A program made the position numbers and the translations under genes. Under the pieces are notes generated by a model. That model ran no database searches. It saw only the letters and a list, made by a program, of their open reading frames with translations, and had not been told where the DNA came from. Positions 151-59,570 of a stretch of DNA of 64,000 bases are shown piece by piece (the first letter of the stretch is position 1; each line of letters starts with the position of its first letter). This stretch comes from Echinostoma caproni (taxonomy: Eukaryota; Platyhelminthes; Trematoda; Plagiorchiida; Echinostomatidae), in assembly GCA_900618425.1 (NCBI GenBank), contig UZAN01039725.1:32181-96180 (forward strand), read 5' to 3'.

Positions 151-654
151 GTATGTTGTGTGATCTTCACCAGGCACCCTGTGCGCTGTTGGGTGGAGCA
201 ACAGCCGGACAGATAAATTTAAATTATTGATTTTTTGGAAAGTAAGCAATAGTTACAATAAACAAACGAATCTGTTGTCCAACGAACGGGGCAGAGATGA
301 ACTCCATCCCCATTCAAACAACACTTAACGTAATAATGTGTAGAAAAAACTAACAACTATCGATGGAACTTTCCTCTGCACAAACTAGTTCACATATCCA
401 AAATCGCATCTTAGTGAATATTTATCTACGTGTGTGCCAATCCAGCCCGCCTAGATCACAATACAAACTGTATTGTGTGTTGGGTTCACACACGCGGAAT
501 AAAATTTGAGCCACTGAGGATCGAAAGCTCAACTCAACTTAACTCACTGTCTAATTCAGCCACCACCGACAAATGATGTAATAATTTAGTGCTCTAGTTA
601 ATCATCGCGCTGTTGCGCCCAAGACGCTCGTTCCTGGGACAAACCACAGTCATT

Positions 655-840
655 TAAATGAGGCGTGAGATGAAAAGCTTGGAAGCACTGGACAGCTGCT
701 TCGACTTGGCTGGGTCTCATCAGCAGTGCAAATCCGTCAATTCAACTGGGAAGCGAACCCGGGACCTCACAGGTAAAACGCAAGCATACTGCCCACTCGG
801 CCACCGGGCAGCTGATCAGACCATTTCTCATTTTGAATAC
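655..840 (-). repeat. SINE family A copy A1 (left arm of foldback 1)
   Basis: Read on the minus strand this copy starts with a tRNA-like head. Box A is TGGCCGAGTGG (complement at 793-803) and box B is GGTTCGCTTCC (complement at 749-759). A body with a hammerhead-like motif follows (685-729), ending in a tail around TTTTCATCTCACGCCTCATT. The head resembles class II tRNAs such as Leu/Ser, so Pol III transcription is inferred. It is the best-preserved family A copy and the left arm of an inverted pair with 930-1065. Confidence 0.8.
685..729 (-). ncRNA. Type I hammerhead ribozyme-like motif in SINE A1
   Basis: On the minus strand, in order: gcactg (helix I), CTGATGA (core), a 14-nt helix II segment closing with gac/gtc, GAAG, a loopless helix III gcag/ctgt, C17, then cagtgc, which pairs perfectly with the opening gcactg. 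All conserved core positions are present except A15.1, which is G and can still wobble with U16.1. Helix II has one mismatch. Predicted cleavage falls between plus-strand positions 690 and 691, about 105-110 nt downstream of box A. Hammerheads self-cleave RNA by transesterification at an NUH site. Activity is inferred; this is the best candidate in the window. Confidence 0.7.
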
Positions 841-929
841 ACATGATGTAGCACAATCCATCTATACGAGATTGTTGCGAGTACCGGTCCTGGCTCATTT
901 CAGCACTAGTCTCCAGGGTTATGACTTGG

Positions 930-1065
930 TTGGAAACTTTCACAATGGGGTTCAATTCCCAGTTGGGTCGATGGATTCGTGCACTGTTGATGAGATTTAA
1001 CCAGGTCAAGGCAGGTTTCAAGTGCTTCCCGGCTTTTCATCCGACGCTTTATTTACACGCCGAAT
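930..1065 (+). repeat. SINE family A copy A2 (right arm of foldback 1)
   Basis: Plus-strand copy keeping the box B region (gggttcaattcccag), the hammerhead body and the tail, but its box A region is replaced by an unrelated spacer that is shared with copy A4 at 13.7 kb. The hammerhead-equivalent segment (981-1025) keeps the 45-nt spacing but has TTGATGA for CTGATGA and a mutated GAAA, so it is a relic. Confidence 0.75.
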
Positions 1066-1069
1066 TACA

Positions 1070-2756
1070 GCAGCTTTATACATAGCTCAATGGTCCTGCA
1101 TTTACACGACGGATTCATCAAATGAACTCCTTCATTACTCTCATACGAACTACAGTGTGAAGATGCAGAATCGCAGTGAACATTCACGGTGCACATGCCA
1201 AGTTGAATCTTTCTGTAAATCATTGCTATTTCTCAATTCATTCACTCGCTTCGATTTACTGAACCGTCAACCTTGTCTTTTAGTTATGATGCATAAAACA
1301 CAGTGGCTTTGATGATTATGAGAAAAATGACAAATATCTCTCTTTTGTAACACACATTCAGTTTTATGCTCACCTTTTTACCTATGAATGCTATGCAAAC
1401 ATAACTGGAAGAAAGTGAAACTAACAGAACCACTGTGCTCCTGTGTTTAATAAACAAATGCTTTTGCACTGGCAACATGTTTCGTTTCACAGGAAGCATT
1501 CGGTGGTGATCGACTGATAAGGTAATCGAACTAATCGCCTGGAGGTCCTGAGTTCCTACTCCACCATCGCCGCCGCCCATATTCCCATTATCTGTACCTC
1601 CCCATGCAGCCTTTGTTTGGCCGTGGCTCTCTTCCCGAGATTTTATTGTACACTTCTAGAATCATTTACATTGTTCTTCCTCGAGTAAAAATACATAAAT
1701 AGTCTTTGGTAGATTGCACCGCTGCGCCAATGGCTTGTCCGGTTCCGACTGAAAAGTTCCCTCGTTGTCACTCTAACTTAAGACCTCAGGTGGCTTCTGA
1801 CAACCCAGAGCATCAATAGCCCGAAAGTATTTTCGCAGATAAACGAAACATGCTGATACTAACTTGATTGTTTTAAATCTACTGGTGAGTTGGCAGTTTT
1901 TAGTACTTGTGAAGTAAGTTCAAAGTAGTTTCAGTATATCTACGACGTGAATCGTTGACGTCTGAACGAGTTCCATTGTTATTGATTATGGTTTCAACAG
2001 TGAACAGGTATACGACTAGTGTAGACCAAAAATACGCCTTTTATTCATATTTCTACTTTTCTACTCGTACACAGTGCCCTTGGGCGTTTCTGAAAGACCA
2101 TTTTCCGTGCTGTCCAGTTCCAATCGGGTTTCTTCCGCAGCCTACATATTCTGTAATGCTGTTCGTCTTTGATCAACACATCCATCCTAGGATTTATTTC
2201 ATGGGCAAACACATCAATTGGTAATGAGTCATACATTTGAGTAAACGTCATAGAATTCCGTGGTTCCATAAATGCACGGCTAATACTGTCAGCAAATTCT
2301 AGGTCTGTAATTTACATAACACGAACAAGTGGTGTGTTAGGATAGGCTTTGTCTGCTAAATGCAAGCAATCTAGTCCACAGAGTAACCTAATGGCACTAA
2401 TGCTGAACAGTAACCACACAAGATTCATTATTCCAAGTAAGTGCTCCTCGCTCCCTACAACAAGAACAAGCAAGCGCCCTTGAGTTTGTTAGATCTTAGA
2501 AAATGCTTTGCTTTTCTCAACGTAGCAATAATGTCCAGGATAGAATTTTTCGTGGTAACCACCAACAATGATTAAATCATGCGATGATTGGACACTAAGC
2601 CTAATTCAACATTTGATCTCTACATCAAATAAAACTGTATCTCTTAGATGAAGTGGACTGATGATTGCAGTACTTCAAGCACCACTGGAAGGCAAACCTT
2701 GGAGTCTTCACAAATACCACATCTTGAGATATTTCACAGCTTTGAAACAGGATTAC
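1070..2756. other. No supported feature
   Basis: Short unconvincing open frames only. A weak tRNA box B-like string (tgagttcctactcc) near 1550 may be an old SINE remnant but has no box A partner. Confidence 0.5.
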
Positions 2757-9400: not shown

Positions 9401-12400
9401 CACTATCTCGTAAAATTCTTCTAATAATACGTGGGTTCTTTGCTTCATTTGACGGCCATTCGACGACGGGATATACTATCCACAAAGTGTTTTGAATTAA
9501 TTATGGTACAAAAGCGTCTTGAAGAAATCCAAGTTCGTAACCAAGAGCACTTTCCACGTAAGTAGTGGTTGACAGGTACTGGGCTGAGATTGATTCAAGA
9601 TGTTTATTGTGAACAAAAACGAGAGAGAGAAGTTTCGTGTACAGAAGTGATTACTGCATTGCACTGAATAAAAGCAGGCTAAATAGACCATTACGCACTA
9701 TCATCCGAACAAAAGAATCATCACTTCTATCCCTGTTTTCTGTCTATTATAAAACTCTTTACTCCCAGTATTTTCAAACTCCGGTCCTATTCATAACTAA
9801 GAAGTCCGAATATTTACACAAATAATTTGGACCACAAGTGTAAAATTGTGAAATCAGAAAGTGCTACTTTGTTCATCTATCCTACCAAACCAGTCTAGCG
9901 CTCATAAATCTACCAAACTCCACGCAGCGGAAAATGGGTAGCCTGTCAAACGCGATGAAACCACATGTTTCACCTAATACATGCATTATTTGCATTCAAG
10001 AATCTTGGTCAAACCAATATGTTGGGGGGTGGGAGGTCTTTATTGTGCGTATAAACAGGCTCGAATATCTCGAGAAGGACAACATAACACAAGAATAAAA
10101 AGAGTGATGATAATGTGGATTGTACCTATCAATTCATTCTAGTGCGATAAACCCAAGGGGTAGTTTTCAGTGGAACTGTTTGTGGTAACCGACAAAGAGC
10201 AACAAAGACAACTGTTTCATCCTGTTTGTGACTTGTCAGCAGTGCGTACCTTCTGTGTCCCTATCAGGACTAGAAACGTTAACCTTCATCAGCAGTGCCT
10301 AGTGCCTGTGAAAAGCCGAATGGGCTAACCCAAACATTCGCCATCTAGGCCTCTGTGGTGATCCTAGTCTACGGGATAACGTTAGCCACGGAGCTATGCG
10401 TTACAGTTTCTGTACAACGAACCACAGGCCAAAAGTGCCGATCAATCAGAAGTCGTGCGGTCTAGACAAAAGCTGTATGAGGTCAATAATGCAATCAGGC
10501 AATTAATGGATACCCGAGTAATCAATAAAATTCATTTGTACATGTTATTTAACCCCACTGATTTCTTTCATTTAACGTACTGCTACTTCTGTTGCTTTTT
10601 TGCATCTGGGTGACGGGAGACACCAGAGTTCTAGTGCTCGCATGATTCAGTGTTTCAGGTGCGTCCGTGATTTTTTATTCGTAATTCGTGATCTATTGTC
10701 CACTTCGACTACTACAGTTTCATGCCAGTTTCGTGACAGTTTCTATTGTTAGAGTACCGTTGTCACTAAGCGGTAATTACTAGTCATCCTTTTTTCTCTA
10801 CCCGGATATTTTTTCACTTGTAGTCAGTCATGTCCATCTACTCACAGAATGCGTAGGACTTATAGGCACAGAGGACTCAAATGACGATCTGCAATCTATC
10901 GTTTGATAATGCATGTTAATTAAAATAGTTTCTCAATTTTGTTCGTTTAAGACCTACATTTAACTCTTCTCTTGTAAATGGAATCTTCACTTTGTGGAGG
11001 TGTGTAACCTCCCAAATACCGTTTTTGTTTGTTAACTCCATAGAAGTTGATCGCAACTCTTCCTGTACAAGATCTGTGTTGTTACACGCACTGAACTTTT
11101 AACCCTCAGTTTGCAATCCACATCCTCAATTTAATTCCGCTTTCTTTCGTTAATATTGTCGGTTTTCACATGTACAACTTTAAAGTTTCAAGAATTGAGA
11201 TAATGACCATCAATGATGCAAACTACATCTCATAAAAAATCGTTTGCTAAACGGGACAGGCTTCATACTTACGTGATAACCAGCTATGAAAGCCTTTTAA
11301 TTGCCCCTCATTCATTGGGTATAGAGTTGGTGCTCGCATGTATCGACCCGGTCCCACCTCATACAGACCCTTAGCCACTCTTTGTTTGACACAAATTTCG
11401 ATTTAAAGTGGATAACTTGAGGAATAGCTTCCGAAGAGTTTTCAAGTATAATGATTATGATTTTTTTATCTTTTCACCGCTTTTTGATACTAAGATTATC
11501 TTTTTTAATTTTAGCTGAAATTTTGGTGTCATGCAATACTCATTAGTTACCATCTTCGATGCACCCAGATGGCCAAAACCCTCACGTTAAACATTTAACA
11601 GCTACCGAAATCAATGGTCAGTGGCAGGTATTGAACTGAATCATTAATCCAATGTATCAGACAGGTGATAGAAGGAAAAATCAGCTTTGCCGACCGTGAC
11701 CAACTGATCAACTTTAACAGTCGGCTGTTTATGACGTAATCCATATCTAACTACTCGTTAGTAGTTAGTTATTTAACCCTCAAATTCACCTGACCGGAAA
11801 CTGTGCATATCGACAAGCATTACAGACATCATTCTTGATGCAAACACATTATCAGGTAAAATAATAAAGCCAAAGCAGTAATTGCTACGACCGAAACACA
11901 CTTTGCTGTTGGATGTTCGTGTGCCTATGAAACTCTTCATGACTGTCGTTAAGGATCGCGTAAGCATTACGTTACGACTTTATTGATACCATAATTCAAG
12001 CTGGAAGTAATGCGTTGGTTTGGAGCATCCTCCCTCAGCCATTATAACAAATTACAGAAAAAATGCATCAAGTTTTAGAAAAAGCTGGTAAAACTCATTT
12101 ACTTGAACGCTCATACTATTCACACTTTTTCTGAACTCGAGTCGTGCTTTTAACGTGCGGAGAACGGGGTCAAGTGTTGGTACTGAGATTCGAACATATG
12201 TAAAGTAATTTTGTATAGGATTTCATTCATGATTGTTCAGTCTACATGTTTTTAAAGAAAATAACGCCACGGTATTTGGTGAAACTGTGACTTCCTCAAA
12301 GCTGAGAAAACTGTTTTCGTGTATTAGACTTAACAGCTCTTTCTGTTATCGACTCATCGTGTTAATTTATTTATCGTAAATGACTCGTCGTCGAAAAAGA

Positions 12401-13463
12401 TGATGCAACAATAATGAAAGATTTTGTTCCCTCTGCATCTTGAAAGTAGTAGAAAAACAGAATATAAGTATTGATCCTTGTATTCGCCGATACTATGTAA
12501 TAAAACTTTGAAGGTCATTGAAGGTCACCCTATTTGAAAATCATGCAAACGGCTATTTGGTTCAGTATCTAGCAATATCTCATCCGCTGTTTTAAGATAC
12601 CGAAACATTTAGCAAAACCCATTTAATACACAACACTGAGCTTTAAACTAAGGGATTAGGTCTCTGAGAAAATCAAAGGAACTTTGTTGACCAATAATCT
12701 CCATTCAGAAGGTATTTGAGTACACTTGTTAGAAGTCTCATAAATCTAGCTGGTTTTCTGTATGCATTTTTAGCGTTTAGTGAATACGAGATTTCTTTTC
12801 TCCTGTATGCAAATTAAGTAATGTGATTTGCTGAAGTGTTTTTAAGACTGCCAAATTTTTTGTTTTATCTTTCATTTTTCAATCCTTTTATAGAGTAAAC
12901 AATAATACAATTTTCAGGAATGTGGAAGCGGCCAATCAGACGGCTGTCATACTACACACAATGAGGAGTCAGGTAGTGGTAGTGATGGTGGTGGTGGGTT
13001 TCGTTCCAACACCTCATCCAGTATGATAATTTGGAGACTTTTAACACTCGACCGCTACCGCTCTGGATAGAGAGTACAGATTTGAAACATGTCCACATTT
13101 TAAGTACGAGGATTCATGTTACTGACGTGACCTACTTCATTTAAGTTTTTATGGAATTCATATCACATAACACAAATGATTACACATATACATCCCAAAC
13201 ATGAGTGCACTCATCACTGCTTCATAATGTATCCTCTGTGTCAATAGTTGGTCAGCGAGAGACCCACTAATTTGAACTTCCGAAGGCAAACATTTTGAAT
13301 CCAGCGCACAATATCCCGCCTTATTCTAATTTCACTTCACTTATTTGCTCTAAAACTCCTGCTCATTTACAAGTATTGGTCACTAACTAAAATGGGTTTA
13401 GCAAAAATTGGTTTTATGAGAATACTGGAGGATTTGGTTTGTTTATATGCCGAATCCCTTGTG
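6431..13463. other. No supported gene
   Basis: AT-rich non-coding sequence with relatively GC-rich patches near 6.5-7.3 kb. The longest open frame (7181-7669, 162 codons) has no motif I recognise and contains an internal short duplication (tatatgagactatatag region). A gtggtggtgg run lies just after it at 12.97-13.0 kb. No RNA gene was seen. Confidence 0.45.
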
Positions 13464-13650
13464 TAAATGAGGCGTGAGTTGAAAAGCTGGAAAGCACTAG
13501 ACTCCTGTTTCCACCTAGTTGGGTCTCATTAGCAGTGCGAATCCATCGACCCAATTGAGAATCGAACCCGAGACCTCACAGATAGAACGCAAGCATACTG
13601 CCCACTCGGCCACCGGGTAGTTTATCCGTTTCTCATTTCGATTATGCACG
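13464..13650 (-). repeat. SINE family A copy A3 (left arm of foldback 2)
   Basis: Minus-strand copy with a good tRNA-like head: box A TGGCCGAGTGG (complement at 13602-13612) and box B CGGGTTCGATTCTC (complement at 13557-13570). The hammerhead-equivalent segment is 13494-13538: same 45-nt length, GAAAC intact and GTC cleavage triplet present, but CTAATGA instead of CTGATGA and a helix III mismatch, so probably inactive. Confidence 0.8.
13494..13538 (-). ncRNA. Degenerate hammerhead motif in SINE A3
   Basis: On the minus strand: gcactg, CTAATGA (invariant G5 changed to A), helix II ending with a ggtg variant, GAAAC, AGGAG, TC, then tagtgc. The spacing is conserved, the core is damaged, and helix I has one mismatch at the junction. 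Confidence 0.5.
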
Positions 13651-13689
13651 ATATAGCACAACCCCTTTTATGCGAGCTTGTTGTGAGTG

Positions 13690-13850
13690 CCGGTTCTCGA
13701 TAATTCCAGCACTAGCCTGCAGGGTTATGACTCGGCTGGAAACTTCCACAACATGCTTGCGTTATATCTGTGAGGTCCCGGGTTCGACCCCCAGTTGGGT
13801 CGATGGATTCGCACCGCTGACCGGACCCAACCAGGTCGAAAAATTCTTTT
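13690..13850 (+). repeat. SINE family A copy A4 (right arm of foldback 2, 3' truncated)
   Basis: Plus-strand copy with box B gggttcgaccccca (13779-13792) and a body truncated just after the GAAA of the hammerhead segment (about 13811-13845). Its core reads CTGACCG. The spacer before it (gttatgactcggctggaaac and flanks) is the same as in foldback 1, showing that the whole composite shares ancestry. Confidence 0.75.
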
Positions 13851-16170
13851 TAGATATCTAGTACAAATTCACAGACAGTACTAGGCAATTCATTCTATCA
13901 GTAGAATGGATGCTGCCGTGCAACTGACCAGAATATCAACGCCGTCACACGAGCAATATGTTGGCACTATAGGTCTTATAAAACCCCTTACACCCGAGTT
14001 TTGGTTACAATGGCTTAGGTAACCGGGTTCTAGTGTAAAATCCTTAGTTATGAAACAGTTGGACAGTACTTTCATGGTTTTTTTTAGTAAGACACACAAA
14101 CGGGGACAGATAGATATCATAATGATAGTTTTTATACTGCGCCTGCTCCATATATTCTATTCTGCAGTCTATTCCATGGACGCCAATTCTCGGTCTGATA
14201 ACGATCCCCTCCCCCAATTCCCCCATGCACTTTATGGATATTTCTCTCTCTCTCGCACACACACACACACACGCATCTTCTTTGTCATCCATAAATGATG
14301 AGACAATTAGTTTGTACTTTTGGGGCCCAAACGTCATCCCTCTGATAGGCACGAGCCAGCTCGGCGGTGAAACGTGGGATGCTCCATTCACTCAACCGCG
14401 TAGTCCATCGTCCACTCCAATGCCACCGTGCTTACTCCCACCCAAAAAGAGAAATGTTCGTGTAAATTATAAACAGGATTTTTTTTCTCCTCTGTCTTTG
14501 AACCCTTGTGCTGCACATTAGAACACCTGTGTACCTAAACCTCACAGGTGGCTGTACTTTGTCAGTAGAATATACTAGTGGAGTATACTAGCGAGTGTGT
14601 AGACAAGTCCATCTACCCCTCACTGATCAGTCTAGCCATTTTGGAGAACACAATCTTTCACTTGTCCTACAAGCCTGTATCAGCAGTCCTGGAATCGAGA
14701 GGATATCACCTCCGATGGCGGAGACAGTTTCACCAGAAAAGGGTACGTGTGAAACAGACAGGAGAGCGGCTGGGGGAGGGGGAGACAATAGCATAAAATG
14801 CGCATGTCTGACATATTTTGATTGTCACTTTTCGTTTTTTTTTCTCTTCTCCAGTTCGGCCAGATTACCCTGGGCCCGTGTTGTTTGTTCATTGTCGGCA
14901 TTGCCGTGTGAATCGTAGTGGACTGGATTGAAGTGAAACTGAACGATTGGTTAGGATAATTTGCAAGAAAAGTACAAGCTCGAATTGCACGATCCACACG
15001 AGTGAAGGACACGAAGCGTCATCGCGAGGCCACACCGACCAGCCTGTTTGAACTCGCTTTCCGTATCAATTCGGTTCACGTGTGTGTGTGCCCGCAATAC
15101 ACGTGCCCGTGGAACGAAAACGGAAACTGGTAGAATCATTCTCTCATTTGTGTGTATAGTCTTGGTCACTGATACACTGAACAACGTGAAAAGTGCTTCC
15201 ATGTTAACCAAAAGCCTCGAAACTTTGATAGTCCAAGATAGGGTTTAATACTCTCCTAATTCATTGAAGAAAGGCTGTTTGAAGAGGCCGAACCGAGTTT
15301 AGGGGTCTACCAAATCTATGACCAGTTTTACCTCCGACAAAGACATAATTTCCAGTAAAATTGACTAGCCTGGTATCAACATTGACAGACGAACGATAAC
15401 ATTCAAATGAATTGAATATAGTACATCTCAGTTGCTATTTCAAGTGGATCGACATTTTTCGTGAAATCCTGATAACTTAGACATTAATAGCATCTAATTC
15501 GTAATTTAGGTAGACAGTAATTCTTTACCTGGAGGAGACGCATTTTTGGTTAAAAAAAGAGGACCTCACTCCACCAATCCCATTCATGCATAACCGTATG
15601 GAGCTGTGGTTGCAACTTGTAAAGTACAACGAAGTACAATCGGACTCCCACAAGTTCGTGAACGATACTCAATAACATTAATTCACACTCGATACGTTGG
15701 TCGTCTACGGTAAGGGGAAGGCTACAAAGAGGGATATTTCGATGTTTTCAGAGGAACTAACTGCTTTGTAATCCCATCAATCTTAAAAAAGGGTTATGTC
15801 TTTCTCGGTTTGGGATACACGCCGCCATACTTACTGAACAACTGTGGTCTGAATGCATGACAGCTGATAGAAATTCTCTATGGTTGACCGATCGCCATTG
15901 AAAAACGTACATGGAGTGGATAATGCGCTGGTGCAACTATCACGGAACGTAATGGTGTAATGCCCTATGAAGCGATAAATTATGGCTTCAGTTAAAAATG
16001 GCGGATTGAAATCGAACGGACAGAGTTATACAAACCGTATAAGTGTATCAACATTGCAAGGATCTGGGGCTGATTAATGGGGTAGGGAACTATTTGGCTT
16101 GGTTGGAAGATTGAGCTGGTTCTCACTGACGGGACTTTGAATGGTTCTAGGTACATAAATGTTGATTTAT
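13851..16170. other. No supported gene; short (AC)n near 14.26 kb
   Basis: The 14.0-15.2 kb part is somewhat GC-rich with overlapping open frames of about 70-115 codons on both strands, none with a recognisable domain or convincing splice signals. A short ctctctc/acacacac tract lies at about 14243-14273. Confidence 0.45.
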
Positions 16171-16235
16171 TTGAGCTAGCTATCCTTAGGACTTCACCTT
16201 CACGAACAATTCTCAGTTCATCGATTCAATTATAC
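16171..16235 (-). repeat. SINE family B 3' fragment (inverted partner of the 16.29 kb copy)
   Basis: The reverse complement matches the family B 3' region (aactgagaattgttcgtgaa followed by ggtgaagtc) seen on the plus strand at about 16.41-16.45 kb. It is followed by a plus-orientation family B tail (catcccacaccactagtcac). Confidence 0.65.
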
Positions 16236-16267
16236 ACTCAATCAGTATCAACCATCCCACACCACTA

Positions 16268-16505
16268 GTCACAAGTAACTGTAATGGTTTGCACACGTCT
16301 TCCATGCTATCGGTCCGGAGTTCAAATCCCGGACGGTGGATATGCACTACTGATGAGCTCTATTAAGAACAAAACTCGAGACTAGTGCTTCCTAGTGCAT
16401 GGCTGAATCGATGAACTGAGGATTGTGCGTGAAGGTGAAATCCGCAGGGTAGTCAGCTCAAATCAATCAATATCAATAATCCCACACCACTACTCACAAG
16501 CAACT
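16268..16505 (+). repeat. SINE family B copy B1
   Basis: A tRNA-like head with box B gagttcaaatcccgg, a hammerhead-like body (16344-16388) and a conserved tail ending in catcccacaccactac-like sequence. Shared with copies at about 19.0 and 19.5 kb on the plus strand and at 18.9, 29.1 and 58.1 kb on the minus strand. Confidence 0.75.
16344..16388 (+). ncRNA. Hammerhead-like motif in SINE B1 (core damaged)
   Basis: gcacta (helix I), CTGATGA intact, helix II gctc/gaac with one mismatch, AAAA in place of GAAA, helix III ctcgag, AC, then tagtgc, which perfectly pairs gcacta. Loss of G12 and of U16.1 makes activity unlikely. Confidence 0.5.
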
Positions 16506-18187
16506 GTGAGTTAAATGGGAGTAAATAAGTGTATTGAATAATCGATGAAAGTCAATGCTACAGTGGATACCAAATGCATCTGGTGTTTCACGCGAGTAAC
16601 GCCAATGGATCGCCCATTCGAGATACGCCATTCAATGACAGCAGGTTAAACAGAGAATCGCTACCGGCAGCCGTGTATCCGGACCACAGTTGCTTAACAC
16701 TCATGTTATTCCAGATCGTCATAGAATGATGTTATAAACGGAGTCCTCCATAAACATCGAAATATTCCTCGGTGTGGCCTTCCTCCTACCACGGAAGATC
16801 AACCACTACCATAAATATGGCGACATGTACTGAATGTAAAGAAAGGTTAACTGGGTGTTGCTCACGAAACCGCGTCCGTGCGATTGCACCTCGTTGTACT
16901 TTTGAAGTTGCTAGCACAACCCCATATGTACACAGATCCTTTTGCCTCTAAGCTTGTACTTGGTTGTTCACAGACTCAAGGCACGACTTCGAACAAAAGT
17001 TGAGTTGATAGGGACAACACTTTAAACATTGTTCCCAAGGCCCTTCAAACAGTTTACACATTTCAACAGCAAACCATTCGAACATGTTTCAGTTCTCCAG
17101 TGTATGGACTCCTCGATTCTTCAACTTGTTCAAGTGAAAAACTTTGTTCAGCTGCGTATAAATAATGCCAGAATAGCAGTTCTACATATTCACTTGCAAC
17201 CTGATCATTCTTCACGTTGAAAAACGAGTTAGTTGGTTAACCACCCACCGAACGCTAGCCCATGATTGCGAGACTCAGGCAGCAATTAGAGAGGTATTTG
17301 ACCACTGGCACCTATAGTGGATCTGTATATTTAATTGGTGAGACACTGAGCGGTTGTAGCAGTCTCTAAAACGAGGACGGTTTCAATAACGCGGTCACCT
17401 TCCACGTCGTTCAGTTACAGAACTCAAAATATATTGCTTTGTCCCCGTGATTCGGGGAATGGTATTATCGATGTGGTGACGACTGACAGCATCGCTGAAC
17501 TGGATGCAGAAGCTTTCTGCGACATTCGGTGCCGCAAAAAGTGCTAGTTCTTGATCTGCCCCGATTTCACCTACGACTGTCTTTCGTGGACAGCTAACGT
17601 TTACGATGAGTACACAGCCCGGTTTATCCCACAGTGAGAGTAGGTGGCATAAAATAATGATAAAAGTTTGACCTTTTACTTCTTATTCCAAACAATTTTT
17701 ACGCGAACAATATAATGGGTTAAATGGGCATAAACCCATATCAAATCCCATAGACAAGAACAATCAGACAGTTGAATTTATACGCATTAATCGAACTTTG
17801 CTTCCATCTGGTAGTCGAGGGACTTTTCGTGTGCTCAAAAGTTGCCGGCTCATGCGTTGAACTGCAAGTCTTTTCAGATTAACAGATAAAAAAATTCGCC
17901 AGTTCAGTAATTCGCGCGTATCGGTCTCGGTGTGAACAAGACATCACATGTTCGGTAATTCTACTTCATGCATTCGATTTCACGCTATCCGGAACCAGAA
18001 GCAGTTTGGTTTTCGAGATAAGTGTGTCATCGGTGTATCGCCTACTCGCACCTAAAGCCTAATAAAACCACTTAAAACCATCATTCACACGTGGGTGGAA
18101 CCCATGCTAGTTGTACATATTTTCACTGCAATAAATATCGCCAACAAATATCTATGCGTGTTCCATCAGAGATAGTGAGAGTCATGG
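16506..18187. other. No supported feature
   Basis: Short open frames only; nothing recognised on either strand. Confidence 0.5.
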
Positions 18188-18864: not shown

Positions 18865-18990
18865 TCAAATTTTGATTTGAACTGCTCATCCTTCAGACTT
18901 CACCGCCAGGCACCATTCTCAGTTTATCCAGTCACAACCATACAATCGAAAGCACTAGACTCGAGTTTCACTCTTATTAGAGCATGTATA
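18865..18990 (-). repeat. SINE family B copy B2 (left arm of foldback)
   Basis: The reverse complement carries the 3' half of family B. It preserves the best cleavage-site version of the family, GAAACTCGAGTC followed by tagtgc, showing that the family ancestor had the canonical GTC triplet. The CTGATGA half is lost. Confidence 0.65.
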
Positions 18991-18994
18991 GTAC

Positions 18995-19232
18995 AACTAT
19001 ACAAACCAATTCATGCCACAAGCACATCCCTCCAAGTGATGAGTCCGGAGTTAAAGCCTGGACGGAACGGGGAATATTAACTTCTGATGAGCAGCTATAT
19101 TGGGGGAGCGAAACTGAAATCTAGAGCTTCCCAGTGTATGCTTGGCTGGATGAACTGAGAAAGGTAAACACTGAAGCACGGTCAGTGCAAATCACTATCA
19201 ACCATCCCACACCACTACTCCCAAGAAACTGT
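18995..19232 (+). repeat. SINE family B copy B3 (right arm of foldback)
   Basis: Plus-strand copy with ccggagttaaagcctggacg as a decayed box B, CTGATGA at about 19084-19090, GAAACTGAAATC and the conserved tail (catcccacaccactactccc). The helix II segment carries a 5-nt insertion relative to other copies, so the ribozyme fold is lost. Confidence 0.65.
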
Positions 19233-19444
19233 AATTTAAATGTGATTTACTAATTCAGCCTAATAGGTTCGTGGCCAGTTAGCCCGTAACCTGCACCGAA
19301 GACCTGACTTCGTGAGAGGCTTTCAATTACAGTTAACGAATAGTCAACTGTCTCCCATCGTTGCTATCGGACCAAAATGAACTGATTGACTTTCACTGAG
19401 GGCAACACCTAAACAAATATGAATTGGCAATTCGGCTCAGCCCT

Positions 19445-19660
19445 AGTATGAGCTGATTAGCACAATGACAACACACGCCATCCATGCGATGGATCCGGAG
19501 CGTAAATCCTGGACGGGACGGTGGATATGCACTACTGATGAGCTCCAATAAGAGCGAAACTCGAGGCTAGTGCTTTCGAATGCATGGTTGACCGGGTAAA
19601 TTGAGGATTGTGCGTAAAGGTTAGGTCTGAAGGGTGGTCAGTTCAAAGCAATATATCTGC
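19445..19660 (+). repeat. SINE family B copy B4
   Basis: The most complete family B copy. The head gattagcacaatgacaac is tRNA box A-like; a decayed box B follows, then the best-preserved family B hammerhead motif (19529-19573), then the family tail. Confidence 0.75.
19529..19573 (+). ncRNA. Type I hammerhead ribozyme-like motif in SINE B4
   Basis: gcacta / tagtgc forms a perfect 6-bp helix I. CTGATGA is intact. Helix II is gctc/gagc around the loop caataa. GAAA is intact. Helix III is the loopless palindrome ctcgag. The only core defect is G instead of U at position 16.1 (GGC rather than NUH before cleavage), one substitution from canonical; copy B2 shows the ancestral T. Probably inactive here but strong evidence for the family motif. 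Confidence 0.65.
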
Positions 19661-21722: not shown

Positions 21723-21783
21723 ATTTCATAGAAGGAATTCGTCGTGCATAGAGTAAATGAAGCGTAGACTGAAAAGCTGGGAA

Positions 21784-21828
21784 GCACTGTAAAGCTGTTT
21801 CGATCTGGTTAGATGTCATCAGCAGTGC
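21784..21828 (-). ncRNA. Hammerhead-like motif in SINE A5
   Basis: On the minus strand: gcactg, CTGATGA intact, helix II catc/gatc (terminal pair lost), GAAAC intact, AGCTTTA, cagtgc. Helix I is perfect. The cleavage triplet is TTA, which fits NUH, but helix III has a mismatch. Marginal activity is possible. Confidence 0.55.
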
Positions 21829-22060
21829 GCAAGCATGCTACCCATTCGGCCACCAGATTACCAGACCGTTTTTTCATTTCCTATTGACACGATATAGCAC
21901 CATCCATAATTCGTAATCAACTACGACAGAAATGGGCGTTTCTCTTGCTTCCAATGCGGTATCGTGTAAATGGAAAATGAAAAACTGTCTGGTAGTTTGT
22001 CCGGTGGCCTAGTGGGTAGCATGCTTGCGTACTGCCTGTGAGGTCCGGGTCGATGGATCC

Positions 22061-22105
22061 GCCCTGCTGATGAGATCTAACCAGGTCGAAACAGCTCTAC
22101 CATGC
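22061..22105 (+). ncRNA. Hammerhead-like motif in SINE A6
   Basis: gccctg, CTGATGA intact, helix II gatc/ggtc with one wobble, GAAAC intact, AGCTCTA, ccatgc. The core is complete. Helix I pairs poorly and helix III has one mismatch. The 45-nt length is kept. Confidence 0.5.
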
Positions 22106-22166
22106 TTCCCAGCTTTTCAGTCTACGCTTCATTTACTCTATGCACGACGAATTCCTTCTATGAAAT

Positions 22167-22745
22167 TGAATCAAATCCTGCATTACTCACATGGAACCTG
22201 GATTTCTTGTAATAACTTGACCATCGACTATCGGTTGTCATCCATTTCACCAACCTCTTTGGAATATGTTCAGCCATCCGTGGCGAGAGCTGGCAGTTTG
22301 TTTTACCTAGATGTGCGTCACCGCAACTGCAGGTGAATTGATATACAGTGTGGGAGATGGAACAGGTTTTCCAGCCATGTTTACTTTTGTGCAAATTAAC
22401 TCAACGAGCAGAGGCATGAGTCTGAATTGAGCAGCTGTGGAATGTACGGTCTAGAGCTGACCTCAACTTATGGCGCACATCATTGTAAGTGTGGTCACCT
22501 TTGAACGCAGGCTTTAAGTAGGTGTTATTTTTGCTTACGTTTTGGATTAGGTCACTATTTGGGAATGGTCTACTGTGAATGTCCATAAACCTATCTGTGT
22601 AACCACTGTTTAGCAGTGTTTTCCTCAGGAAATCCTCTTCTTCCTTTAGTGTGTCTGGAGAACAAATGTCTATCGCCCGATGAAATAGGGTTCTCACAAG
22701 CCCACGTTTGTAAGCCATGGGGAAAAAGCTGGAAAAGTGTAGGTA
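22167..22745 (-). pseudogene. Penelope-like element fragment with GIY-YIG endonuclease
   Basis: Penelope-like elements are retroelements encoding a reverse transcriptase and a C-terminal GIY-YIG endonuclease. Two minus-strand frames cover the C-terminal part. 22401-22718 contains the linker typical of these elements (MAYKRGLVRTLFHRA, then EEEDFLRKTLLNSGY). 22158-22394 contains the cysteine-bearing motif YQFTCSCGDAHLGKTN and RMAEHIPK, which match the GIY-YIG core and its conserved arginine region. A stop and frameshift near 22395-22401 separate the two, and nothing of the reverse transcriptase palm remains upstream, so this is a dead 5'-truncated copy. It abuts SINE foldback 3 on its 3' side. 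Confidence 0.8.
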
Positions 22746-27200: not shown

Positions 27201-27720
27201 AAGTCGGCTGTTAACCGGGATCCAATCGAGAAGTGAGCGCTCGGCTTTGACACTCAGCGCAATCCCAGCACCAGCAGCACCGCGAGCTTCGGATGTCGCC
27301 TGACACCGATATGATTGAAGTAGGGTCTTGTATGTGTGTTTCGGAGATACAGCATACATCTATCTGTATGGAAGGTTTCAAGGGTTCTAGCTAAGGCGGC
27401 TTGTTGATCAATCTGATAGAGTGTGCGGACATTAAATGCGGCTAAGTGGAAAGGAGATGTTGACTTCAAAAATCTGATAGCCTCTGAGTGGTTGGCCTCA
27501 TTAGTTGAACACTGAGTGGCATCCGATGGGTGGCGAAAACAGGATGCATCTCTCAAGGTATGGGACTGAGAAGAGGAAATAGACAGTTGAGAAAGACGGT
27601 TCTCCGAATGGGTACCTAAGACTTTTGAGCACGGCATACTACGCGGTTGCCCACATCGACGAAGGGGTTTTTCTTTGGGAACCACAACCGGAGCCTTTGA
27701 CTCAAAAATCTGACCCACAA
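24247..27720 (-). pseudogene. Broken endonuclease-reverse transcriptase ORF of the RTE-like element
   Basis: The remaining open segments are 27254-27718 (leader and endonuclease N-terminus), 26859-27359 (endonuclease core, including SYRTKRRCLFVVSAYALTDC), 25986-26321 (linker and first RT motif) and 24633-25274 (C-terminal domain, across the gap). The endonuclease metal-binding SET-type motif is changed to LRNTHTR, and the GD in the conserved GDFN motif reads VD. The YADD box is readable only after a frame change. The copy cannot encode a working enzyme. When intact, such a protein nicks genomic DNA and copies its RNA by target-primed reverse transcription. Confidence 0.85.
24786..25089. other. 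Assembly gap (304 N)
   Basis: Run of N inside the retrotransposon. The 20-mer cgagctttctgtatgtgagc lies directly on both sides (24766-24785 and 25090-25109), and the minus frame repeats AHIQKA at both edges, so the contigs probably overlap rather than being separated. Confidence 0.99.
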
Positions 27721-27840
27721 GGCAAAGGGGTTATGAAATACGTGCTGGTTCCGTTCTCTCTCCCGCGCGTATCCGAGCGTTAGCGTGATGTGCTGCTGTG
27801 CGCTGAGGTTTAACCCGATCAGTTATTTTTTCGAAACGGT

Positions 27841-29175: not shown

Positions 29176-30937
29176 ATTCAATTTGGTTCATTTGTTGTTT
29201 TCAAGGACAATTCGTCAGTTATTTTAACATGACAGTAACAGCTTCTATAACATACAACGGAATCATCAACAGCATCATCATCTTTATCATCCCCGTTATC
29301 GTCATCATTACCATCGCCATCAGCAGCAGCAACAACAGTAGCCTCGTGAACATGATACTTTAACAATACTACCTAATCCGTTATTGTTGCATTTCACGGA
29401 ATCTAACCACAGAATCAAGAACAAGGAGAATAATGCGCGCAACCCGTTTATAGTCAAACAGTTTAAGCCATACAGTGGTGTATGGAGTCTAAATCAGGCT
29501 CAACACGGGCGCCATTTGGCTATTATGGCTTAACCATCATAATATTTCTCTTTTTGTATCTTATAGTAGCGACGGAGCGCTTGGTACCCACGCCGGTATT
29601 AGTTGAGTAGGAGTGCTTGCATCTCACTGAAACTTCTGGGTTCATGGTGCTTCGTTTATCTTAACTTGCACAGTTGTCGTAAACTCTGACTGCCAGTAGT
29701 TCCTCTCAATTCCCTTTCACCGTCGTCCGTACCACCGATCCTCGCCGTTCCATCATCCGTCGTCCGCGAAGCCATAAATCACATGGATTAATCGCGAATA
29801 CAAGACAGAGGACATCGTGCCTCGCATTGATGTCATTTCCACCGTGTTGTGAGAGCCCGATATACGTTCGCATCACAGTGAAATTGTAATTCAGATTGTA
29901 GCAACTTTTGTAACTGAGGCTAGCTCACTATCATTTGGATGCCAGTGATCAATCAGTTTTCCTATCGACTCTGAGATTAGTTAGCGATCCAGTATGGCAT
30001 TGATCTGTACTTATTTCATGTTCATCTTTTAAATCGATTAGATACAATCACAACTAACCCCTTATACAGCTCCTTCCGATCAGGATATTCAGATCAGGTG
30101 GTCTGATACAACAATATATTTCTGTAGAGCGAAATGCCTCACTTCTACTTCGGCCGCATATTTCATTGAATCACTGCGCTAAAGCTATTTATACCGGGTC
30201 AGATATCGACTCGTCGGCCCCAACTATCCGCGATTTCCAACTGTTGATTCCTACTGTGTTTTTTTAATATGGTGGCACTGGTAACAAATATTTGCTAACA
30301 CCTTTTTGAATGAAAGGTGTCCGCATGCGGAATGTGGAACTAATGTTATCCTCACTCGTCCCACTTACAAACAGTCGTGCACTCACTAAAACTCCACATT
30401 CATTTAGTCTGCTTTACCACAGATAATCTGTCATACTTTTTAAATTCACAGATTATGCTAAATAATCAGAGTGAAAACAATAAGTGAAGGGTTGCGAATA
30501 CGTCGGATCAGAGTGTGCAAAATCTCAGAATAAAACTGGCCTTTGAGGTATCATTAGGCTTAAATATTTATTCAGGTCTCTTAAATCCACTTGATATTTG
30601 TCCCTATTCAAATTGTGAGGACTGTTTAACTATTCGCTTTTATCCTATATATTTATGCCGTTAGACTATCTTCAGATTGCAGCACCATTTTTCTTAATCC
30701 ATTGGAATTTGATCCCCGGCTGCGAGGTGTCCATTCAATGCACCAACAACATCAACTTTCGGGTTCGATCATTAACAACCTACTTCCCGTAAACAAAACA
30801 TGACAGTGTGCGACGAGTAATATGTTACTGAGCTGCAACGCTCTTCGACTTGATGGGCTGCAAGTGTACCAAGTGTACAAATTACTTAGCTCGTTGCCGG
30901 CAATTCAGACCTGTCATATGATCAGTCGCATGACGAA
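29176..30937. other. No supported gene; imperfect ATC trinucleotide tract
   Basis: At 29260-29340 an imperfect atc/agc/aac tract gives an Asp-rich minus-strand frame that is repeat-derived. Nothing else stands out. Confidence 0.5.
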
Positions 30938-31085
30938 AAGTGAGGTGAAAGTCCACGAAGCCCCGTGCAGCTGTTTCGACCTAGTTGAATATTATCATCT
31001 GTGTGAACCTTTTGACCCAACGGGGTATCGAACCCAGACCTCACATATAGGACACAGTCCTGATACTAACTTTGCCATCGAATAT
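30938..31085 (-). repeat. SINE family A copy A7 (degenerate)
   Basis: The minus strand retains GGGTTCGATACCCC (complement at about 31021-31034), GTCGAAACAGCTG of the hammerhead body and CTTTTCGTCATGCG-like tail sequence. CTGATGA is lost, so no active motif remains. Confidence 0.6.
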
Positions 31086-34000
31086 TTAATCGGACTGTTT
31101 CACTTTTTCTATAAATGATCAAGCACAAACCATTTTTGCGAACTTTGTGCAAACAACTGAATTAGTTCAACTTAGCATTAGCCTACAGGGTTTATGGTAC
31201 TGTCGGAAAATTCCTAACCTCATCGCTTAGTAGGACAGAGTAACGGAGTAAATGATCTAGCAGGAGCGCATTCAGCTTAAGAAGTGGAACAGTTTCAATC
31301 ATAAATTAGAACCACACCCTTCCAAGTTGGCACTGAACATGACGTGGATTGAACGGTTATTATAATGTTTTCATTATTGATTTCAACTGACAATTCTTTA
31401 AACTTTATCTACACATAAAATGCTCAGTTCATCCAAACAATTTGGTTTAGGGGAAGCAAATAACAGTTTTGGTCTGATTAAGTTTTACCGATGCGCTAAT
31501 CAGTGTGTCCAGAAGTTTCGCTTTCGGCTCTTTCCTTCATTCGAAAATTTTCACGATGTATTAAACGAATAAAACCTGAAACAAAAACTAAGTGGATGAG
31601 TTCAATGTTGTTTATCAAATCATATCCCCGGACTAAGAGGGTTTCGGTTTTCAACTCGAACGTTCGTGGTTTGAGACCCGGTAGGGCCGCGAAAAACAGT
31701 ATTCACTGCTGGCGAGCCCCATCAGCGTTCAGCATGTGAGAATCAACGCACAACACGTAAAAACCAGAAAATCAATACTTATTACTTGAGGCTGATGAAA
31801 CGGGATAGACTAACCCAAATGTCATACTACAAGTCATCTATCATTATTTCAGCATTCGGAAGACAGCTAGTGATATCGCAAAACTATAGACAATCTTTAA
31901 CTGTGTATATTTGCTACACGGTTCTGTTTCCCTGTGTGTATTTTCACTCCAGAAAGACGATGGCGAAAGTCAAATCAACCCTCGAGGGAAGGAAATGTCT
32001 ATAAGAAAAAGAATACCGAAACCATTGGGTTGAAGGTAACCACTGAAACAGAAATCGCCCAAAATATCAGTGGACATGACGGTCCGGAACGGTTTAACTA
32101 CTGTTGGTGAGTGTTTTCAGTTTTGGCTGTACTATAGAGACCAACACAGTGAACAGCTCCATCAAATTTAACTTGGTTCACACTACTTTTAAATATCCAA
32201 CTTTTCTGTATCATACTAACTGTTGACGGCATAGTTACTAGAAGTACACGATTTTGTTTGGAAGGGGGAACTCTAAATTGGAGTAAATGTAAATGAAAAT
32301 GTTTTGACTGACTAGCATTAAAGGTGATAATTGAAACAATCGGGAATTGACAATTCTGGTCAGCTTGGTTTCGCACAGCGTTACGAAATGAATGTGTGCT
32401 CTGCTGCCTGTTTCGACAGACAACTATCCGTCCTGACAATGTAGGATGCATTCTGACCAGCTGAACTTCTCCAGCAACGATGGAGGCCTAATTTGTTACT
32501 TGTTTCATATCCACGTGATTGTCTGAACATGTAGGCGTTTTTGAGAGCAGATTTCGAACAATAAATTACGCATTTGAGTAGAAAGTCTTCTTCAAACGGC
32601 AAATCATATTGAAATCAGCTATTTTCTGCTATCGAAATTTGTGAGGTTGCAGTTACTGACGCACAATGTCGTTCTTACCGAAACGTTGTTACTTATTATA
32701 TGCAAGATCCCTAACTTCATTGTGGTCCCCGGTTCAACTGGAGCCGAGGTCCATGGATGTGCACTATTGATGGCAATCGGAATTTGTTATAAGTAATGGT
32801 TTACACACTCTCCTGTGTTTTCGCGACGCAGTTTGGTTGCTGTTCCATACCCTTCTGTTAATGTATATTTGACTGCTGTCAGCATCCCTGAATAGGATAT
32901 AATTAATGAAACAGGTTGATTGTACGCCTATTTTCTTCACTCTCAAAATGTTAGCCCAATATCAAGGGGGGTGGGATAATGGAGGTTAACTTCCAGGACG
33001 AGACTTAGGCGTCGGATATTATTTTCATTCATTTAGTGTGAACCAACGGTAGGGGTATGACCAAGGCCCGATTCTTTCTAACGATCAACAAAGATCATCA
33101 TAATGCTACGTTTTGTGGCAGTTTTTTTCTATTGCTATTACATGTTTCCCTGTAGAATGAAGCTAATCACAATTCTTAATGCAGATCTCATCCCTCTTGT
33201 GACATTACAGATCATAAAATGTAGTTGTTAATAGTCGCGAGTGAATGAAGGCTTGCGATGTGTTCAAATCTCAAGCCGAATTTATGAGAAATTGTGCATC
33301 AAACAAATCAGTGCCAAGTGCTCAAGCCTTGGCATACAAGTTTTTATTGAACTCGTGAAACAACGGAGTTTTCTTCGGACTACTTTCTCTCCGAACCTAA
33401 TGAGTAAAGCCTCATGCACGGGAACGGGTGTAGCATTTATAAAATAGTAACCCCTTGCTTGGCGGGTTCTACTATACGGGTATCCTTATAATCACAAGAA
33501 TTATCGATTTCAACGACCACTGGAGGTGTACCATTCGTGAGCTTACCGAACTTCAATTTAGAAAATATGAAAGATTTATTTCCAAAAATGACGAATATAC
33601 ATGAAACAGATCGCGCAAATCCATTTTCTCGATGCACCATGTGCTCTCTTCGAACACTTGGATCCGTCATTTTTGCATGGAATCCATAAAATTGGCAATG
33701 AGATCTCTTTTGTCAATTTACTTCCGTACATTCCACAATCTGATCCCGGAAACCACTCCCGACGTAGTTCAGATGTTTCCGTCTACTCTGTGTTTTCAAT
33801 TACATTCCAATTCGGAATGTTCATTGACAACTGAATGAAATTAATTTTGGAGTTAAGCGGTACAGAGGTTTCACAAAAAAGAACGTGCAATATGTAATAA
33901 AGTATACATGGTTTCCATGTTAAACCTTCCACGAGATCTGACAAGGAGCGTTAGCTTGAAAAATTACGTGATGGTTGACGAAAACCTGTTTGATCAATAA

Positions 34001-38145: not shown

Positions 38146-38149
<4 letters not shown>

Positions 38150-38600
38150 AAATGAGAAACTATTTGATAGGCTGCCCGGTGATCGAGTGGATAGTATCTG
38201 TGCGTTCTACCTCTCGTCTTTTGTCTTCTTTTTGTCGCTGTCTTTTTACTTCCTTTTTTATTTACTGAACATACAAATGTACAGTCAACATTCAGGAAGG
38301 GGGCGCAGCCATACAAAGGCTGCCTGGGAAGACGGATGACGGTGGAACGGTTCGATTCCGGGACTTCCAGGTCATAAGTTGGTGACCTAACCCCTTGGCC
38401 ACCACCACCTTGTTTCTCGGGTTCGATTCCCAGTTGGATCGATGGCTTCGCGCTGCTGATCAGACCCAACCAGGTCGAAACAGCTGTCCAGTGGTCCTCA
38501 GCGCTTCATCTCACACCGCAGTTACATGACGAATTCATCACATAAACAAATCAAATCCTCCACTGATCTCATGTTTCATGTTCTCTAAACTGCCGAGCGA
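38150..38600 (+). repeat. SINE family A copy A8, interrupted by a ~200-nt insertion
   Basis: The copy starts with aaaatgagaaac, a conserved 5' lead-in, then box A tgatcgagtgg (38180-38190). From about 38213 to 38415 the sequence is foreign. The copy then resumes at box B gggttcgattcccag (38419-38433) and continues through a well-preserved hammerhead motif and the tail. The foreign part carries its own tRNA-like pieces on both strands (cggttcgattccggg at 38348-38362; complement of gtggtggccaaggggttagg near 38.39 kb) and a gcagcc/ggctgc hairpin at 38305-38323, so it is probably another SINE-like insert. Confidence 0.75.
38450..38494 (+). ncRNA. Type I hammerhead ribozyme-like motif in SINE A8 (G8C)
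   Basis: gcgctg, CTGATCA, helix II gacc/ggtc with loop caacca (perfect), GAAA, loopless helix III acag/ctgt (perfect), C17, cagtgg. Everything but helix I's outer pair and one core base is canonical. The core base is G8 changed to C. In hammerheads G8 pairs with C3 and takes part in catalysis, so activity is expected to be lost. Confidence 0.65.
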
Positions 38601-58250: not shown

Positions 58251-59448
58251 TTTGTTTAGATTTCTTCTTCAGTGAAGGCCATTCGGTTTATTGGACCCGA
58301 TAGCCACGAAAGGAAATAGTCTGCTGTCTGACAGCTCTATTGAAACCCCCCCTCCATAATAAAGAGAAAATCAAGAGTATTTTTTTTATCTGGTCACAGT
58401 TTAGATGACTCGTACTCACTGAATGATGTGATCGTTTATTAGAAATATCGATATTCCAGCCCTTACACACATACACACATCATTCACAATTGTCATACCT
58501 TATCACGATTCGATTTGTATTCATCATTTAGTTAGGTTCCTTTGGCGTATCGAAAAATTATCCCAAGGTTATTCTACCTTTCATAGAGCTTTAAGTAACA
58601 TAGTTCATTTGTATTTTAGATTAAACAATGGAACAGAAGGAGAATTGATAGTGATTGAAGTTGCATCATTTCAGACAGAGTGAAAAACTTGAATAGGATT
58701 CAACATCAGATGTGTCTTGGGCGTTTAAGGCCTCATATTTGAGGTGTGCATCAAAATCTGAATTCTGTCGCCTCCATTTTCACCCAAATGGATCACAGAC
58801 CACGAAACTATAGTAAGGCCACATGCAGTTTTGCATATTTCTCCGTGAACCACCCCTACCCTCTTCTTTGAACTCATCTTGACACGGAATTCCGCTTTCC
58901 CCTGTGCATGAATCGGTGTATGCAAGGGGAAGTATTGAGGAGGTGCGAAATGCCATTAAAACCACACTGAACTCAATACCGAATGAATATGGCTTTCGAT
59001 TTTACCCGATAAGGGTAAAGTTCAGGGCTAATCGGCAGTGAACAGTGAGGAATACTCATTGTCACACAAGGGCTTCTGGCCTCTGTGGTGTTCAGTTTTG
59101 CAAAGTGTGCTTTCACTCGAGTTTCACTGTGAGCAGATCACACGTACATGTGTGTGTTAGTCAACACCGCCCTGAAGGGACAACCGAGCCACATCACGCA
59201 ATCGAAGTGAAATGATATAAAACGGCAGTTAGCGAGTTTCCGGTCGATTCCACTATAGCCGTATCTATTGGTACTGTACGTCGAGAAACTATGGATGCGA
59301 ACCGCCTTGAATCAGAACACTGGTACTGTGAAGTTGAGACAATGCTGTGTGTAAACCTGTTCCACCCAAAGATCGCCTAAATAAAACTAGACGATGTCAA
59401 AAAAGGTACGGACTGTGCTATAAGCGTAATAAAATTCCGTCTGATCAC
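58251..59448. other. No supported feature
   Basis: Short frames only. Confidence 0.45.
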
Positions 59449-59570
59449 ATATTCAGCGGCCAGCTGTGTAGTATGCTTGCGTTCTACTTGCGAGGTTCCG
59501 AGTTCATGATCCTCAATTGGATAGATGGATTAGTACTGCTGAAGAAATTCATTCAGATCCCATGCTCCCT
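59449..59570 (+). repeat. SINE family A copy A9 (degenerate)
   Basis: ggccagctgtgtagtatgct with tgcgttctacttgcgaggtt matches the family A tRNA-like head. A decayed box B follows, then agtactgCTGAAGAaattc in place of the hammerhead start, after which similarity is lost. Confidence 0.6.

Follow-up and report, generated by a model that had tools for sequence, protein, structure and literature searches.

The window, which here means the whole 64,000-nucleotide stretch that was analysed, carries a type I hammerhead ribozyme motif on its minus strand (Table 1). Read from 729 to 685, this segment is GCACTG CTGATGA GACC CAGCCA AGTC GAA GCAG CTGT C CAGTGC, and it matches all 45 positions of the Rfam model RF00163 (Hammerhead_1) with 37.5 bits, above the cut-off of 34 (E 7.5e-6, entire window against 4227 Rfam families). 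The invariant core CUGANGA / GAA / NUH and the three helices are present, with 6 of 6 pairs in helix I, 3 of 4 in helix II and 4 of 4 in helix III when a G.U at 15.1-16.1 is counted; these position names, like 10.1-11.1 and G8 below, follow the usual hammerhead numbering. Relative to the Rfam model, the copy departs by G15.1.U16.1, where A-U is expected, and by a C.A in helix II, and it has 3 mismatches to the hammerhead consensus of its repeat family, designated family A. A strict hammerhead descriptor of our own matched the window at this site only, compared with 3 matches in 100 dinucleotide-shuffled windows. A preliminary description of the sequence had placed a minus-strand type I hammerhead within these 45 nucleotides and had proposed an Rfam covariance search as a check; at the level of sequence, the score, the core and the helix I pairing confirm a genuine type I motif. 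Nor does the family consensus lack a covariance match, which had been named as grounds for rejection, as both arms of a further genomic locus, L051, equal the family A hammerhead consensus and score 49.9 bits with RF00163. The loopless helix III that had also been described holds up in its pairs, but a loopless helix of 4 bp cannot close in one strand. The ViennaRNA minimum-energy fold of the 45-mer is a competing structure, though the tool is unable to form a loopless helix, and it was uninformative.

With boxes A and B, family A has a tRNA-related Pol III head that is followed by the hammerhead. Box B (759-749), one base off the consensus GGTTCGANTCC, sits between box A and the ribozyme start. 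The box A that had been placed about 105-110 nt upstream is present, 112 nt before the cleavage site but 74 nt before the first base of the ribozyme. When six loci were submitted to ARAGORN, the head of L051, a well-preserved copy, was called as tRNA-Gln (356-282, minus), 7 nt before the hammerhead, and no tRNA was called in the other five; the tRNA covariance model gave sub-threshold scores only, with 20.9 bits for L051 and 17.7 bits for L018, a locus of family C. In these two loci, the hammerhead starts 7-10 nt after the tRNA-like 3' end. Elsewhere in the window, a tRNA was called at 46950-47031 within a repeat of about 119 nt (46925-47043), which may be another tRNA-headed family; two copies of this repeat, inverted relative to each other, lie next to a Penelope-like element at 580-856 of locus L060.

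The hammerhead at 685-729 lies in one arm of a head-to-head pair of family A copies, insertion A1. The assignment of a shared centre, M, is based on segment 6-296 of the A1 minus arm, which aligns through to 13751-13464. Read on the minus strand at 845-945, and likewise in L055 and L056, the centre contains CCAACC-GAGTC-ATAAC-CC(C/T)GGAG-GC-TAGTGC, which resembles the 3' half of a second hammerhead in decayed form. No open reading frame of at least 120 aa was found inside 639-1156, and one of 123 aa starts at 1284. The locus had been described as a tRNA-headed SINE with a hammerhead, and the hammerhead, the tRNA-like Pol III head and the many copies all stand, but the evidence does not support a plain single-arm SINE. 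The inverted pairs were absent from that earlier reading, as was the second hammerhead family at 16344 and 19529.

Table 1. Hammerhead-bearing elements of families A, B and C and their parts, in window positions.
Feature	Position	Strand	Remarks
Insertion A1, head-to-head family A pair with centre	651..1144		arms - (655-847) and + (948-1056); tail on + arm only
A1 left candidate target-site duplication, weak (ACAAACCACAGT)	639..650	+	10/12 identical to 1145-1156; adjoins element end
A1 minus-arm body, early end, no tail	656..684	-	
Type I hammerhead	685..729	-	RF00163; predicted cleavage between 691 and 690
A1 minus-arm tRNA-like Pol III head	731..814	-	matches the head consensus of family A
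Pol III box B, GGTTCGCTTCC	749..759	-	direct reading, one base off GGTTCGANTCC
Pol III box A, TGGCCGAGTGG	793..803	-	direct reading, exact
A1 centre M, upstream of head	845..945	-	common to A2, A5 and other genomic copies
A1 plus-arm hammerhead, core lost	981..1025	+	10 mismatches to consensus
A1 plus-arm 3' tail	1121..1144	+	
A1 right candidate target-site duplication, weak (ACGAACTACAGT)	1145..1156	+	10/12 identical to 639-650
Family C copy	10165..10287	-	decayed hammerhead 10245-10201
Insertion A2	13416..13843		tailed minus arm (tail 13416-13439, hammerhead 13538-13494); plus arm cut short within hammerhead
Family B head-to-head pair	16160..16528		hammerhead 16344-16388 (+); tail on + arm only, by eye
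Family B head-to-head pair	18871..19253		tail on + arm only, by eye
Family B copy	19472..19657	+	hammerhead 19529-19573, G at 16.1
Insertion A3	21728..22194		minus arm (hammerhead 21828-21784), plus arm (hammerhead 22061-22105), tail 22166-22194
Further family B copy	29000-29158		
Copy A5, decayed	30936..31113	-	
Copy A4	38147..38573	+	interrupted by a further insert (about 38213-38414); hammerhead 38450-38494; tail 38549-38573
Further family B copy	58040-58199		
Copy A6, head with truncated hammerhead	59421..59582	+	

The same 45-nt block had been listed at 981, 13494, 21784, 22061 and 38450, and all five copies exist, but they are diverged: compared with the hammerhead consensus of family A they have 10, 6, 6, 7 and 3 mismatches, respectively, and each has a broken core or lost pairs. 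A count limited to sites with CTG or GAA in place gave no match with up to 12 mismatches in 20 shuffled windows. The cores of 981, 13494 and 38450 are broken (by G8 to C in the last of these); in the copy at 21784, core and helix I are intact, but the 10.1-11.1 pair and one pair of helix III are gone, and the copy at 22061 has an intact core and 3 of 6 pairs in helix I. The segment 38451-38494 also scores above the RF00163 cut-off (36.2 bits), and 13538-13494 (27.3 bits) and 38814-38770 (20.2 bits) score below it. As most copies in the window are decayed, it is uncertain whether the 685-729 copy itself cleaves. Two other repeats were observed in the window: an inverted repeat at 42348-42530 / 42824-42998 that was not recognised as family A, B or C, whose arms measure 125 nt (89%) and 52 nt (92% complementary), and a broken LINE, presumably RTE-like, on the minus strand at 24628-27730, with endonuclease and reverse-transcriptase pieces cut by an N run at 24786-25089.

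The host assembly (426.5 Mb, 12,689 contigs), in which the window is positions 32181-96180 of one contig, was searched with RF00163, which yielded 66,429 first-look candidates; 74 were scored and 74/74 were above the cut-off, the best with 60.6 bits. The 30 best loci among those scored belong to family C, which has a tRNA-like head other than that of family A. At least three hammerhead families are present: A and C, each with a tRNA-like head, hammerhead, body and 3' tail, and B, with a box-B-like stretch before the hammerhead and no clear box A. The helices of family B differ from those of A at several positions (helix II GCTC/GAGC, helix III ACTCGAGT), and the segment 19521-19586 matches Rfam HH9 (RF02275) with 31.2 bits, below the cut-off of 52. 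Family C, represented by L001-L030 and one window copy (10165-10287), has a unit of 320 nt, two alternative tail ends (X2a and X2b) and hammerheads that score higher than those of A, with a helix II (GTCC/GGAC) equal to the RF00163 consensus; its cores are intact in 32/44 copies, a set largely selected by hammerhead score. A family A search of the genome gave 4181 first-look candidates, of which 40 were scored. All three families are interspersed at high copy number: nhmmer matched 7 A, 8 B and 5 C copies, arms counted apart, in 176,701 non-N bases sampled as 20 stretches of 10 kb (L045 was all N) from 17 contigs that were all taken from the RF00163 genome listing, and naive scaling gives a rough figure of 10,000-20,000 copies of each family. 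A pattern search of a viral-contig collection for the family hammerhead gave 0 matches.

The copies are arranged with a bias in orientation. Among same-family neighbours no more than 500 bp apart in the window and L001-L058, with split hits merged and palindromic self-overlaps dropped, 24 were head-to-head (-+), 0 tail-to-tail (+-), 4 in the -- and 1 in the ++ orientation; without L051-L056, which were picked for a listed second inverted match, the counts are 18 / 0 / 3 / 1. A looser cut-off admits one weak tail-to-tail pair (38415-38524 / 38770-38847), which is gone at a stricter cut-off. The family A pairs of the window (685/981, 13494/13811 and 21784/22061) all have their heads inward, and the two arms of A3 are 94% alike over 107 nt. 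A DNA search of the genome with the A1 arm found a further inverted match nearby in 6 of the 40 contigs listed, all head-to-head and one of them with a same-strand match as well. Further copies appear to be single arms.

Several of these insertions are flanked by direct repeats of 11-16 bp, which in some cases enclose whole pairs. Duplications score at least 10 in 9/40 insertions (8 of family C and A3), compared with 0.8% of 1560 mismatched flank pairs, and the remaining 31/40 score below 10. Within family A, 5/11 pairs score at least 9, compared with 2/110 mismatched flank pairs, A3 being in both sets; the other 6/11, A1 included, have no duplication above score 8. The A1 duplication reaches a score of 6, which 36/110 mismatched flank pairs also reach, and is a weak candidate only. 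Examples include A3 (ACCTGGATTTC at 21717-21727 / 22196-22206), L013 (ACATTAAACGAT), L020 (TAAAGTTCACTG), L054 (CAATTACTGTATAT, 14/14), L026, L028 and L004 (CTATCATCTATTCA), where the second arm of L004 was recognised by eye only; A2 has a possible duplication at 13403-13416 / 13839-13852 (11/14).

The two arms of a pair also tend to end differently. Two end points occur among the arms of family A, an early one and one about 30 nt further on, and a tail is present on exactly one arm in 9/11 pairs; L055, with a tail on both arms, and L053, with a tail on neither, break this rule, and the tailless arm of A2 is simply truncated in the hammerhead. In family B, exactly one arm has a tail in 3/3 pairs, judged by eye. 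The outer ends of family C are of two types, at about u265 and about u66 of the 320-nt unit and about 120 nt apart, and in 18/18 scorable loci of the 30, which were chosen by hammerhead score and not by their ends, there is one outer end of each type in opposite orientation. In L013, L017 and L022, the side opposite the long end is truncated or unusual, and the remaining 9/30 gave no end pair. Copy ends cluster at two 3' sites and do not gather at the cleavage site between u224 and u225, which speaks against copies that start at the cleaved 5' end; copies are therefore not usually bounded by such an end.

The helices of the ribozyme appear to have been maintained in the form of RNA. In a hand-chosen set of 29 aligned hammerheads (17 A, 4 B and 8 C) with the structure of the Rfam model, 89.2% of pair cells are standard and 8 of 14 pairs have two-sided changes, with compensatory changes between families in all three helices. 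The fraction of cells paired and the covariation score were each reached by 0/500 shuffles, and two other measures, two-sided pairs and pair types, by 32/500 and 38/500; as the sequences are related, these counts are not probabilities. Slid structures drop to 16-40% paired. This covariation argues for selection at the RNA level. Helix III is self-complementary, with ACAGCTGT in A and C and ACTCGAGT in B, such that one strand can form 2 bp with an AGCU loop and two RNAs can form an 8-bp palindrome. In amphibians, and possibly also in Penelope-like elements, hammerheads whose helix III is very short are reported to work as dimers, according to the available text of PMC7229834 and PMC7761336.

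Penelope-like elements are present in the same genome. Pfam searches identified a reverse transcriptase (RVT_1, 4e-13) followed on the same strand by GIY-YIG (5.2e-7) in L057 and GIY-YIG (3.7e-7) in L058, and 5 matches were listed in a genome search for GIY-YIG; L033 is a broken piece with RVT_1 at 1.3e-4, below the cut-off. L019 presumably holds a broken piece as well, to judge by a motif alone; a PDB search with its reverse-transcriptase piece gave one match (E 0.019), to an unrelated protein. Both copies examined have terminal inverted repeats, with 93.5% identity between L057 358-465 and L060 233-340 and 98.5% between L058 955-1019 and L059 103-167. In the terminal repeats of L057/L060 and L058/L059, a hammerhead-like GACCTTCCAAGAGGGTCGAAAC was seen by eye, and Rfam gave no hammerhead match in L057 or L058. 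The outer end of the L057/L060 repeat reads GGCTAATCCAAACATTCC. In family C, the X2b end is GGCTAATCCAAACATTCACC, with 17 bases identical to the L057/L060 end in the corresponding place. The 46-nt X2b end scores 34 compared with a shuffle maximum of 32 (0/500 as high). This was one of five ends tried, against four Penelope loci that are all partial or decayed; the T1 end of family C is borderline (4/300 shuffles as high), and the other ends have no similarity to these loci (X2a 69/300, A 85/300 and B 174/300 shuffles as high).

In comparison with known systems, family A most closely follows Sm-alpha and Sj-alpha, the schistosome SINE-like retroposons that contain a hammerhead (PMC8490949, PMC2770079, as far as their accessible text goes). 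The tRNA-related head is in common, with S. mansoni elements called tRNA-Gln like L051 (PMC2770079, in part), as are the type I hammerhead, very high copy number and short unit (335 bp in an S. mansoni example, PMC8490949, in part). The likeness is drawn from published descriptions and the Rfam consensus, and the text available from those sources does not describe head-to-head pairs or Penelope tails. Such an anatomy is described for Penelope itself, where the available text of PMC3846280 reports adjacent inverted pLTRs, of which head-to-head is the commonest inverted arrangement, with a short duplication around the whole insert and an optional 31-bp tail at one inverted pLTR. Head-to-head inverted copies, target-site duplication and a tail on one arm are features that the elements described here have in common with Penelope-like elements, as are minimal type I hammerheads (PMC7761336, in the text available); of the five ends compared, X2b also has the 17 bases of its outer end in common with one such element of the genome. 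The differences are a spacing of about 120 nt between the family C ends compared with the 31-bp Penelope tail (PMC3846280), a tRNA-like Pol III head that goes unmentioned for Penelope in the accessible text, and the absence of an open reading frame. The reverse transcriptase and GIY-YIG frame of a Penelope-like element is lacking in A1, and such domains are found elsewhere in the genome. As the window elements have no open reading frame of their own, they are not members of the Penelope-like elements; their insertions look like Penelope products.

Taken together, the head-to-head arms, single tail and single duplication and, for one family, the terminal bases in common with a Penelope element point to Penelope machinery. 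We consider it likely, at a probability of roughly three in four, that family A is a non-coding, Sm-alpha-like hammerhead element moved by Penelope machinery. Penelope-like elements have already been named likely candidates for the mover of animal hammerhead repeats (PMC7229834, PMC7761336) on the grounds, in the text available, that both have type I hammerheads and tandem copies in the same genomes.

The closest competitor to this reading is a retrozyme route, in which tandem transcripts would be cut to units, circularised and reverse transcribed, with inversion as a side effect of self-priming. Metazoan non-LTR retrozymes (PMC7229834, as accessible) likewise combine a small non-coding unit with a type I hammerhead and long duplications, the 320-nt unit of family C falls within their range of 170-400 nt, and some family C matches cross the unit junction. 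Same-strand neighbours also exist but are the minority (5/29), and the copy ends lie at two 3' sites rather than at the cleavage site; we consider this route rather unlikely. Retrozymes are described as tandem copies that are expressed as circular RNA, whereas the elements described here occur mainly as head-to-head pairs; the word 'inverted' is absent from the accessible text of PMC7229834, in which Penelope elements are called strong candidates for moving retrozymes. The retrozyme and Penelope routes may both hold.

It is improbable that these are ordinary tRNA-derived SINEs of the Sm-alpha type moved by a LINE (RTE, CR1), with pairs that arose by independent insertions or later rearrangement. 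The Pol III head is what such a SINE would have, duplications of 11-16 bp are compatible with LINE integration, and LINE remnants occur in the window (Exo_endo_phos_2, E 3.3e-4, below the cut-off) and, to judge by motifs, in the genome samples. However, independent insertions predict tail-to-tail pairs as often as head-to-head pairs, and 0 and 24 were observed, respectively; further arguments against LINE mobilisation are the single duplication around the whole pair in some cases, the unequal tails of the arms in all three families and, in family C, the X2b end in common with a Penelope element.

A foldback or MITE-like DNA transposon with arms that carry the tRNA-like head and hammerhead by chance would account for inverted arms, conserved outer ends and a variable centre, but is very improbable given that the outer ends differ (short versus tail), duplications range in length from 11 to 16, both single arms and same-strand neighbours (5/29) occur, and the helix covariation implies selection at the RNA level. 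A chance motif or functionless fossil, which would suit the departure of all six listed window copies from the consensus and the broken cores of three, is the least credible reading in light of the E value of 7.5e-6, the intact cores of 32/44 family C copies in a set largely selected by score, and the compensatory changes between families.

Under mobilisation by Penelope machinery, we infer the transcription, cleavage and movement of the hammerhead elements. Pol III would transcribe the element, and the ribozyme would cleave after GUC, probably best when two RNAs pair via the self-complementary helix III, which may either release the tRNA-like head or reduce tandem transcripts to single units. 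The tail would then be recognised by a Penelope-type reverse transcriptase/GIY-YIG endonuclease that cuts both target strands, and each target strand would prime a copy, at the short end in one case and at the tail end in the other, before the two cDNAs join in the middle. The hammerhead 'SINE' would thus be a Penelope-dependent parasite. In the available text of PMC11167929, a Penelope protein cleaves both target strands, extends them and begins its copy at an internal position of the RNA, and this internal start is linked to a genomic tail signature that is called unique to Penelope elements.

This kind of element is known already, as Sm-alpha/Sj-alpha; the anatomy of the insertions and the shared end are what the sources consulted lack. 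No report of head-to-head pairs or Penelope tails in hammerhead SINEs was found among the titles and opening lines of abstracts in the open-access collection searched, and neither this anatomy nor the shared end occurs in the text consulted on hammerhead elements. The balance tips slightly towards a wider reading, in which tRNA-headed hammerhead 'SINEs', and by extension Sm-alpha/Sj-alpha, would be a Pol III-driven, Penelope-dependent class, with two-armed, one-tailed insertions that record Penelope-type priming on both target strands and a hammerhead that cuts the RNA into the unit that Penelope uses. The insertion scars and the terminal sequence shared by one family bring the question within reach of a test that combines a Penelope protein with a defined tail RNA. 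If this reading is true, a tRNA-like head combined with a hammerhead would be a recurrent way to become a Penelope parasite.
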